Shown here: piece after piece, positions 47,023-59,200 of the stretch
How positions within the stretch are numbered: the first letter of the stretch is position 1
Layout: every line of letters starts with the position of its first letter
DNA from: an uncultured Verrucomicrobia subdivision 3 bacterium
GTDB taxonomy: Bacteria > Verrucomicrobiota > Verrucomicrobiia > Limisphaerales > UBA11358
NCBI GenBank assembly: GCA_903922735.1
Contig: CAIXUZ010000072.1
Coordinates: 1 to 64,000, forward strand
Direction of reading: 5' to 3'
DNA length: 64,000 nt
Position numbers and translations under genes: made by a program
The notes under the pieces: model-generated
What the model was told of the DNA's origin: nothing
What the model saw: the letters and a program-made list of their open reading frames with translations, nothing else
Databases searched by the model: none

Positions 47023-47190
47023 CTTGGGGAAAATGAAATTTCCCTTGGGAAAAAACATTTTTCCCTTGGGGAAAGAAAAAAACCCCTTGGGGAAAACCTT
47101 TTTCCCCTTGGGAAAAGAGAAAATCCCCTTGGGAAAAGACATTTTTCCCTTGGGGAAAGAGAGATTCCCCTTGGGGAAAATCATTTTCCC
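47023..47190. repeat. Array A: eight exact 21-bp units (CTTGGG boxes)
   Basis: CTTGGG recurs at 47023, 47044, 47065, 47086, 47107, 47128, 47149 and 47170, always 21 bases apart. Each unit starts CTTGGGRAA, has a variable middle of about 9 bases and ends TTCC or TCCC. Read in frame the units give heptads of the pattern L-G-[EK]-x-x-x-[SP]. Several frames on both strands are open through the array, so openness is no evidence of coding. Twenty-one bases is two helical turns, so the boxes face the same side of the DNA. Confidence 0.97.
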
Positions 47191-47252
47191 CAAGCTCCCA
47201 ACGGGCGTTTTTGAGGCAAAAACCGCAAAAACCAGCAATTTTGCCCTTTTCA

Positions 47253-47280
47253 CCCCCGGAAATGGTCAAAAAGCGACAGT
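47253..47280 (+). repeat. 28-bp core motif, copy A
   Basis: The 28 bases contain AATGGTCAAAAAGCGACAGT and start with CCCCCGGA. They match 57971-57998 on the minus strand at 27 of 28 positions. It lies 62 bases past the end of array A. In one frame it encodes NGQKATV in both copies. Confidence 0.95.
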
Positions 47281-47347
47281 TTTAGCCGGAACAAGCTGCG
47301 GGACCGATTTAGACCGAGGGAACCCCGAGGCAGAAACGGGGGGAAAA

Positions 47348-47442
47348 GCGGCGGAGGGCCGCCGCACTCCAAAACGCTGGCGCGTGGACCGGCGATTCCC
47401 GAACGGCGCGAAGCGTCTTGGAGTGCGCTAGCCCTCTAGCGC
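47348..47442. repeat. Palindromic cluster after core A
   Basis: Three nested or adjacent hairpins are present. The first is GCGGCGG aggg CCGCCGC (47348-47365). The second is a wide inverted repeat CGCACTCCAAAACGCT at 47363-47378 with its near-complement at 47412-47427 (one G-U). The third is GCGCTA ... TAGCGC at 47425-47442. It resembles the REP-type palindromes elsewhere in the window, although no GTAG flank is obvious here. Confidence 0.8.
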
Positions 47443-47578
47443 TTTGGCTGGGCGGTGGCGAACTTAAGGGCAACGACTGGGTTTGGCTGGCGCTAATAAG
47501 CTGGACAAATGATGTTTGCGGCTCTAAACCACTTCAACCCGTGCGACCATGATAGGCCGCAGAATTTCAATACAATAC

Positions 47579-57738: not shown

Positions 57739-57766
57739 GTGTTCAGCGCCGTAGGCGCGACAGCAA

Positions 57767-57917
57767 GTAGCCCACGGCGTCAGCCGTGGGTTAATCGTCC
57801 GGGAACGATTCAAGCCCCGGATGGGGCGGCAGAAAACCAACGGCCAGCCCTGCTTTCGCCCCGTCCGGGGCTAAATGATTCCGCCAACCCAAACCCACGG
57901 CTGACGCCGTGGGCTAC
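57767..57917. repeat. BIME-like composite of inverted GTAG hairpins
   Basis: The left unit is GTAG + CCCACGG cgtcag CCGTGGG (57767-57790). The right unit is its inverted copy, CCCACGG ctgacg CCGTGGG + CTAC (57894-57917). Between them, AGCCCCGGATGGGGCG (57813-57828) and CGCCCCGTCCGGGGCT (57857-57872) form a 16-bp inverted repeat with one G-U. This symmetrical layout is that of a bacterial interspersed mosaic element. Confidence 0.9.
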
Positions 57918-57970
57918 TATCGTTCGCTGCTCCGCAGCTTTCCATTTCCATTACCCCGCCCACCCCGCCC

Positions 57971-57998
57971 ACTGTCGCTTTTTGACCATTTTCGGGGG
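57971..57998 (-). repeat. 28-bp core motif, copy B
   Basis: Reverse complement of this segment matches the core at 47253-47280 at 27 of 28 positions. On the minus strand it lies 71 bases past the end of array B, and the BIME at 57767-57917 follows 53 bases further on. Confidence 0.95.
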
Positions 57999-58069
57999 CT
58001 GGGAGGGGTTTTTCCGCGTTTTTGACACATTTTGAGCCATTTTTGCCGTTTCCGGTCACCAGATTGCCG

Positions 58070-58405
58070 GCAATGGTGGCGGGATTGCTGGCAATGGTGG
58101 CGGGATTGCTGGCAATGGTGGCGGGATTGCTGGCAATGGCGGCGGGACTGCTGGCAATGGTGGCGGGACTGCGAGCAATGGCGGCGGGACTGCCGTGTCT
58201 GGCGAGACGAACGGCGTGTCTGGCGGCAGGACTGGAGGATTTGGTGAGATTATTGGAGGGGCTGGTGGAATTCTTGGAGGAGCTAGCGGCGCGAACGGAG
58301 GGGCTGGTGAGAATATTGGAGGAGCCAGCGGAATTCTTGGAGGGGCTGGCGAGATTTACGGAGGATCTGGCGGCACGAGCGGAGGAGTTGGTGGAATTTA
58401 CGGAG
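58070..58405. repeat. Array B: sixteen exact 21-bp units in three subtypes
   Basis: Sixteen consecutive 21-bp units with no insertion or deletion. There are six of the GCAATGGTGGCGGGATTGCTG-type (quoted in part: GCAATGG at 58070, 58091, 58112, 58133, 58154 and 58175). Two begin TGTCTGGCG (58196, 58217). Eight have the pattern GRNYTGGYG...GGAG (58238-58405). In the rsmI frame the last eight read as heptads such as D-L-V-R-L-L-E and G-L-V-E-F-L-E. All forward frames are open through most of the array. The array reads continuously in frame into rsmI. Confidence 0.97.
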
Positions 58406-58495
58406 GAGCCGGTTGCCGCGCTTAAAAGTTGTTCTCCCTCAAACCCTCCACGGATTCCGGTTTATTTCACGCCGCATTTCTGTTTAAGTCAAGCC

Positions 58496-59200
58496 ATGGA
58501 CGCCGCCCCATTGCCGCCGCTCACGCCCAGCACGCTTTACCTCGTCGCCACGCCGATTGGCAATCTGGAGGACATCACGCTCCGCGCCCTGCGCGTCCTC
58601 CGCGAGTGCGACGTGGTCGCCGCCGAGGACACGCGCCGTTCCGGCCAGTTGCTCCGGCATTTTGAAATCTCCAAGCCGCTGTTGAGCTATTTCCAGTTCA
58701 ACGAGGCCAGGCGCAGCGAGGAAATCATCGAGCGTCTCCGGCGGGGCGAGAAAGTCGCGCTGGTCACGGACGCCGGCAGCCCCGGCATCAGCGATCCCGG
58801 GGAGCGCGTGGTGAAAACCGCCATCGCCGCCGGTTTCCGCGTGGAAGCCGTGGTCGGCGCCTGCGCGCTGGTCGGCGCGCTCACCGCGAGTGGCTTGCCG
58901 ACGGAGGAGTTTCATTTCGTCGGTTTTCTCCCGCATAAATCCGGCCAGCGGCGGAATCAACTGGAATCGCTCAAGACGGTTCCCGGCACGCTGGTGTTCT
59001 ACGAATCGCCGTATCGCATCGAGAAGTTGCTGGGCGAGCTGAACGAGGTTTATCCCGAACGCGACGTGGTGCTGGCGCGAGAGCTGACGAAGAAGTTTGA
59101 GGAATTTCTGCGTGGCAAACCGGCAGAGCTGCTCGCAATCGCGCAAAAGCGGAGTCTGAAAGGGGAGTTTGTGGTACTGGTGGCGCCGCCGGCGGTTTGA
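58496..59200 (+). CDS. rsmI: 16S rRNA (cytidine-2'-O)-methyltransferase
   Basis: Methylates the 2'-O of C1402 in 16S rRNA with SAM. From ATG 58496 the protein has 234 residues: LYLVATPIGNLEDITLRALR at the N-terminus, AAEDTRRSGQLLRHF, LVTDAGSPGISDPGERVV, YESPYRIEKLLGEL and LARELTKKFEEF are all family motifs, but the usual tail of about 40 residues is missing. The reading frame is open for 158 more codons upstream, through array B to a TTG at 58022. I treat that as a by-product of the 21-bp period, since ATG 58496 gives a normal N-terminus. Confidence 0.93.
   Translation: MDAAPLPPLTPSTLYLVATPIGNLEDITLRALRVLRECDVVAAEDTRRSGQLLRHFEISKPLLSYFQFNEARRSEEIIERLRRGEKVALVTDAGSPGISDPGERVVKTAIAAGFRVEAVVGACALVGALTASGLPTEEFHFVGFLPHKSGQRRNQLESLKTVPGTLVFYESPYRIEKLLGELNEVYPERDVVLARELTKKFEEFLRGKPAELLAIAQKRSLKGEFVVLVAPPAV

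Follow-up and report, generated by a model that had tools for sequence, protein, structure and literature searches.

Two islands of tandem 21-bp repeats lie in the window (the whole 64,000-nucleotide stretch of DNA analysed here), each beside a short sequence that is nearly identical in both and each intergenic, a placement that rests on rough ORF calls, and they raise the question of whether they are copies of one element and what such an element might be. The first-pass annotation had proposed a composite repeated element with a conserved core, replaceable array units and flanking palindromes, possibly mobile or RNA-forming. The two islands are as it described them, and the family to which they belong proved larger than claimed. 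Island A, on the plus strand, consists of an array of 8.0 units of 21 bp as called by TRF (47023..47191), a leader (47192..47260) whose T-tracts lie on the minus strand and are, as a class, phased with the core, and the core itself (47261..47281, the 20-mer being 47261-47280), in which the 19-bp conserved unit occupies 47263-47281 on the plus strand (TGGTCAAAAAGCGACAGTT; reverse strand AACTGTCGCTTTTTGACCA). The array unit is of the palindromic TTTCCCCTTGGGGAAA type, with a palindromicity p of 0.03 against column permutation and 0.02 in a cruder test. Island B reads on the minus strand, with the core at 57971..57990 (AATGGTCAAAAAGCGACAGT on that strand), a leader (57991..58061) with plus-strand T-tracts about every 10 bp counted from the T5 of the core, and an array of about 16 units of 21 bp by TRF (58062..58409), the distal part of which has a 42-bp higher order. 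This array stops short of the gene starting at 58496 (rsmI; the names rsmI, ccoP, ccoG, hpnC, SDR and glnB were assigned by reading of sequences alone). The 28-mer common to the two islands differs at one base, as the first-pass annotation had counted (27 of 28 identical), and shuffled versions of the window are expected to contain the core 0.00 times. Island B is accompanied by a BIME (57745..57939) made of two inverted Acido-Lenti-1 (RF01687) matches, 57745-57790 on the minus and 57894-57939 on the plus strand, which start with GTAG as GTAG-type REPs do, and island A is adjoined by dispersed repeat sequence (47313..47548), of which 47313-47508 recurs in L063 (88.6% over 202 bp) and 47450-47548 in L081 (90.9% over 99 bp). 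We regard the BIME and the dispersed repeat as neighbours, as the status of constant part is not supported for either. A further tandem array of the window, at 2434-2653, has nested periods of 15, 30 and 38 bp (GACTACGGACTACGAGACTACG) and is unrelated to the 21-bp family.

We searched the whole genome (4.48 Mb, 82 contigs) for the core 20-mer with up to 3 mismatches and obtained 12 matches, 5 forward and 7 reverse, the reversed control giving 0. An array of 21- or 42-bp period lies 5' of the core strand at all 12, the opposite of a genome in which cores mostly stand without arrays, the outcome that the first-pass annotation had named as speaking against its proposal. An inner 17-mer, again with up to 3 mismatches, matched 25 times, namely at the same 12 sites (0-2 mismatches) and at 13 others with 3 mismatches, none of which has an array; as the reversed control gave 29 matches, these 13 are at chance level. 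With at most 1 mismatch, the 17-mer is present in 9/49 genomes of the family, the window's genome included. Among the 20 core loci of the eight relatives, 15 have an array on the expected side, with unrelated units, two have it on the other side (L047, L053) and three have none (L038, L043 and L045, the last just under the limit at 0.56). A conserved core with replaceable array units is thus borne out; the same order and orientation holds at every core of the own genome and at 15 of the relatives' 20, the two loci with the array on the other side departing from it, and arrays also occur without a recognisable core (below). What recurs is the array, the T-tract leader and the core; the elements that they make up form a genuine family, composite and apparently non-coding, of the minisatellite-bearing intergenic kind.

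Across the order, the core has a match in 23/293 genomes. Of the 21 loci fetched from its other families, 15 are arrayless, three (L248, L249 and L251, in three families) carry the array on the expected side, and in three more (L250, L265, L253) an array of 41- or 42-bp period lies on the opposite side. The arrays of L250 and of L238/L265/L307, in one genome of another family (G110), stand on the outer side of the core and have a period of 41 bp, about four turns. When the GTDB species set was scanned, 85 stretches had a core match, 80 of them listed with titles; among the 80 listed, 21 are Verrucomicrobiota by title, with an array on the expected side in 10 (8 of which are loci already counted in the family search) and on the other side in 2, and the 59 titled otherwise include 0 with an array, L158 lying too near a contig end for the test. 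Viral contigs gave 5 core matches, none with an array. The record L224 is titled Akkermansia muciniphila and is the same contig as that of G085 (L248), which is placed in the window's order, so the title may be wrong. In several genomes an arrayless core lies upstream of a P-II (glnB/glnK-like) gene (L169, L186, L191, L038/L089), at 235 bp in L191 and at 221 bp, in the opposite orientation, in L038/L089; this could be either a remnant element or a regulator's site. G247 holds ten copies of GGTCAAAAAGTGACAGT, including L263, L267 and eight other places, and L263 resembles, by eye, another kind of repeat that has inverted ends and may be a MITE.

To define the anatomy, we aligned 28 sequences core first, leaving out the near-duplicates L003 and L046 here as in the inverted-end and polarity tests. 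All share a 19-bp core, AACTGTCNCTTTTTGACCA, with a sharp outer edge: its positions carry 1.2-1.9 bits apart from N, whereas the 39 outside positions carry at most 0.43 bit. A conserved T (1.06 bits) follows 41 bp, or four turns, beyond the centre of the core T5. The leaders vary by type, and still their T-runs come back at intervals of 10.0-10.25 bp. In a 100-bp window, which may include array sequence, the T-runs of 27 loci gave z=13.3 at 10.25 bp; 30 pairs are spaced by 10 bp against 5.9 expected, and there are no pairs at 14, 16, 24, 26, 34 or 36 bp. With the core excluded, the same window gave z values of 9.3 at 10.0 bp and 7.9 at 10.25 bp for 20 loci. The phasing was upheld in windows of 55 and 62 bp, which keep clear of the arrays: T-runs of at least 4 in the first 62 bp after the core gave z=8.1 (10.0 bp) and 8.3 (10.25 bp) in 20 loci (7/27 dropped) and, when each leader type was represented by a single locus (14 loci, 13/27 dropped, types grouped by eye), z=7.3-7.4, this one-per-type z being about 6-7 overall. 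The leader T-runs are moreover in phase with the core T5 (R=0.85-0.86 versus 0.14-0.15 shuffled). A-runs show weak phasing (z of about 2-3.5) and G-runs z of at most 1.5. The classical cause of intrinsic curvature in DNA is the phasing of A/T tracts, and leaders with such T-tracts bear the signature of curved DNA and are expected to be intrinsically curved. The arrays, trimmed to 4-21 units, advance by exactly 21 bp in 215 of 217 steps (24 arrays; those with fewer than 6 units were dropped here and from the coding and conserved-position tests, and those with fewer than 8 or 10 from the polarity test). The register between the array units and the leader T-runs is suggestive only: the A/T-rich side of the units against the last leader T-run gave R=0.58 over 27 loci and R=0.50 (p=0.046) over 12 families, a stricter word gave p=0.074 by family, and the corresponding values against the core are 0.15 and 0.072. 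Loci in which fewer than 5 A/T words occur were dropped from this test (3/27 in one setting). Two other settings yielded p values of 0.025 and 0.18. The phased T-tracts and the exact 21-bp steps point to DNA geometry.

We propose that these loci are copies of a dispersed, non-autonomous, non-coding intergenic element of the Limisphaerales (Verrucomicrobiota) that serves as a curved, helically phased protein platform, a reading to which we give about an even chance. It starts from what the loci display in their anatomy, order and orientation, step, phasing, distribution, unrelated units and sites that differ between species. One end would be a fixed recognition site of 19 bp, followed directly by a leader of T-tracts phased with the site's own T5 and presumed to be intrinsically curved, and then by a tandem array whose units, some palindromic, each span exactly two helical turns (21 bp). 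The working form would be double-stranded DNA: the core would be bound by a putative protein, the leader would bend, and a putative multimeric DNA-binding protein would find its sites in the 21-bp repeats, all on the same helix face. Because the sites would be arranged in this way, spacing would be conserved, whereas the letters of the units would drift and undergo satellite-like homogenisation. The element would be a passenger that spreads through a trans-acting transposase, with RAYT/Y1 the leading suspect, and by segmental duplication. The evidence for geometry is strong and the reading as a passenger element is reasonable; the function as a protein platform is what we infer. That geometry is kept while the letters of the repeats are swapped suggests that the element works through DNA shape or phased protein binding.

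We then consider whether the arrays might be neutral minisatellites, functionless products of slippage, with the core marking an old repetitive element where arrays tend to arise. The patchy distribution is what such a process would give, as are units that are alike within a locus and unrelated between types, and the near-copies L001 and B, which differ in unit number. Some unit types recur across species and families, by eye CGTCGCAA in L044, L049 and L249 and palindromic GGNNGA...TCNNCC units in L050, L054 and L222, and the repertoire is therefore limited. We also looked for arrays away from cores. In 459 kb of the own genome (the window plus twenty stretches, 395 kb, without any of the 12 cores) period 21 accounts for 7 segments, of which 4 lie outside the window (L063 holds one and L071 three), whereas the other periods from 15 to 30 account for 4 segments in total, one each at 15, 18, 23 and 30. 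A core-like site with 4 mismatches, which is partly the core-like motif of the leader itself, lies within 400 bp of three of the 4 segments outside the window; the fourth has no such site. In 100 kb of G036 chosen to avoid known cores there are six arrays, five without a recognisable core; G048, G050 and G085 have one array each, those of G050 and G085 at known cores and that of G048 without a recognisable one, and the core-bearing G033, G005 and G043 showed no array in the 34-100 kb sampled. Five core-less relatives (400 kb) gave one weak 21-bp segment and one segment of period 42, which sits in a repeat of many periods (L284). Given the coreless arrays of the own genome, G036 and G048, the 21-bp array is a wider phenomenon of which the core marks a subset. 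Slippage leaves the preference for period 21, the same step among unrelated units, the phased T-tracts and the fixed end unexplained, and we consider the neutral reading unlikely.

Could the arrays instead act as RNA? They would then be transcribed into small hairpins or guide-like RNAs, in the manner of TIGR or CRISPR or as an sRNA sponge, and the core would serve in processing or regulation. TIGR repeats are likewise constant within a locus and variable across loci (PMC12045711). Units are palindromic at p≤0.05 against column permutation in 11/27 arrays and in 3/27 by a cruder consensus test, and conserved positions are clustered at p<0.05 in 10/24 arrays, with a conserved and a variable block in, for example, L044, L049 and L052. 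Pairing within units exceeds column shuffling at p<0.05 in only 5/27 arrays, however, and Rfam gave no match in the window and the scanned sources other than Acido-Lenti-1, so that the claim of an RNA-forming element is not supported. A CRISPR array was rejected on the 21-bp step and on the absence of leader-to-tail polarity in 17 arrays (p=0.59), and a TIGR-Tas system on the Nop-domain (Tas) protein, found in 0/7 core-bearing genomes in a search that included a positive control, two of these genomes being less than 76% complete. An RNA would, moreover, have no need of T-tracts phased at 10.25 bp. We regard this reading as improbable.

The islands might also be the transposase-binding end of a larger transposon (RAYT or other), the 21-bp repeats being transposase sites and an autonomous partner carrying the transposase; in Tn7-type ends, transposase sites do occur as repeats. 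As REP-like palindromes flank island B, we searched for Y1 transposase (RAYT) genes. An array lies within 1.3 kb of 6/13 fetched Y1 genes from core-bearing genomes (part of the 20 Y1 matches counted in five such genomes) versus 0/9 from core-less genomes, and by a rough estimate array density predicts about 1/13. In L077, L084 and L322 the Y1 gene is followed on the same strand by core and array in the order core'-leader-array, the distance between the start of the Y1 match and the core being 580-880 bp, and in L320 by the array alone. The Y1 types involved also occur without arrays, however (L318, L316, L325, L324/L312), and the link may only reflect REP-rich intergenic regions. Y1/RAYT genes are present in 44/48 genomes, the core-bearing G045 has no Y1 match, and RAYT copy number does not, by eye, separate core-bearing from core-less genomes. 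An inverted core beyond the array matched at 10.3/19 positions versus 10.3 in shuffles (24 loci), in a test that sought core-like ends only and in which the array may run past the scanned end in some loci, and direct cores or shared 8-mers beyond the array did not rise above background. Since the inverted core is missing there, the element has no ordinary pair of transposon ends, and this reading has in our view only a small chance of being right.

The passenger reading rests on the sites of the element, which differ between species. Island A lies in about 1.85 kb between ccoP and ccoG, genes that by eye are close together in five relatives, and 0/25 full-length ccoP orthologues of relatives have an array nearby. 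Likewise, 28 of 29 rsmI orthologues are without an array, and L152 has a coreless one further upstream. The gene order RAYT-hpnC-like is the same in L322 (G005), with BIME, core and array, and in L325 (G021), without them, the two differing by about 560 bp, BIME included. Together with the Y1 neighbourhoods, these comparisons make the case for a mobile element, as had been suggested, a circumstantial one. Some copies are segmental duplicates: L001 is a near-copy of locus B at another site (97% over 411 bp), and an SDR-like gene nearby is also duplicated. In L005 and L012 the adjoining genes are paralogous (88.8% over 815 bp), and the stretch from core into array matches at 73.9% over 199 bp. 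The paralogous genes beside the L005/L012 arrays, of about 250 aa (L079 7971-8717 and L084 13857-14671), stand next to arrays that have diverged. Palindromes, which the first-pass annotation took to be a regular part, do not look like a constant component. The BIME of island B is an Acido-Lenti-1 pair; such matches occur in 5/40 scanned sources, and stems of at least 9 bp (loop of at most 12) occur within 250 bp outside the core at 10/30 loci, a lower bound given a stringent test that misses the hairpins of locus A, and beyond the array at 6/30. A REP/BIME unit of the GTAG kind, a palindrome of 20-40 bp, was rejected on the non-palindromic core and the same 5/40.

Protein-coding heptapeptide repeats (21 bp being 7 codons), with core and leader as promoter and start region, are very improbable: at least one frame is open in 24/24 arrays, there are 71 open frames versus 53.4±4.9 in column-permuted units, and single arrays show a synonymous excess in the open frame (best z 3.0, L012), but dinucleotide-preserving shuffles of consensus units cut the excess to 128 versus 123.2±2.8 (P=0.047), so that stop depletion mostly follows from dinucleotide composition, the best synonymous z averages 0.66 in open versus 1.04 in closed frames, open frames are split between the strands, 31 on one and 40 on the other, neither the synonymous nor the open-frame test shows purifying selection on a reading frame, and no -10 box is seen by eye about 17 bp from TTGACC in the leaders, on which a sigma-70 promoter with the core TTGACC as -35 was also rejected.

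Returning to the curved protein platform, the wider claim would be that bacterial chromosomes hold a new class of element that passes on its geometry but not its letters, with a docking site, a bent leader and fast-turnover arrays of two-turn units. We put this forward tentatively, as possible but doubtful. Such an element might serve as a platform of the centromere or insulator kind that evolves together with a DNA-binding protein, and would be the bacterial equivalent of satellite DNA. Repeats in bacteria are as a rule identified from the sequence that their copies share, whereas here helical geometry and one 19-bp site are what is common across families and the array sequence is replaceable. 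This makes testable the idea of satellite-like DNA in bacteria that is read by shape or spacing, and the core, the 10.25-bp T-tracts and the 21-bp step together provide a search key for the protein partner and the mover.

In the open-licence literature searched we found nothing joining 21-bp tandem repeats with Verrucomicrobia, nor Limisphaerales tandem repeats or Planctomycetes intergenic 21-bp repeats. In iteron-type replication origins, helically phased tandem repeats measure about 19-22 bp, and bent or AT-rich DNA is often present; these repeats resemble the present arrays in length and register, whereas here there are many copies per chromosome and the units are unrelated. TIGR arrays are processed to 36-nt RNAs and lie next to a Tas gene, one class having palindromic stem-loops (PMC12045711); the pattern of repeats within and between loci is similar, and the seven genomes searched here differ in lacking the Nop domain. 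REPs are palindromes of 20-40 bp, most with a GTAG or CGTC end (PMC3733652). REP/BIME and REPIN-RAYT systems share with the present element intergenic repeats, palindromes and a RAYT neighbourhood, and BIMEs stand beside some copies, but the non-palindromic core, the T-tract leader and the long 21-bp arrays set it apart. Nearest in anatomy, on the best reading of the literature searched, is BrickBuilt of Porphyromonas gingivalis, an intergenic minisatellite-MITE which has 19 copies in one strain, with 23-nt repeats in strain-variable number beside a leader segment, a tail and terminal inverted repeats (PMC4596501). In the element described here the units differ between copies, the step is 21, the leader carries phased T-tracts and no inverted end was found, while both are dispersed intergenic elements with a leader and an array of repeats of about two helical turns.
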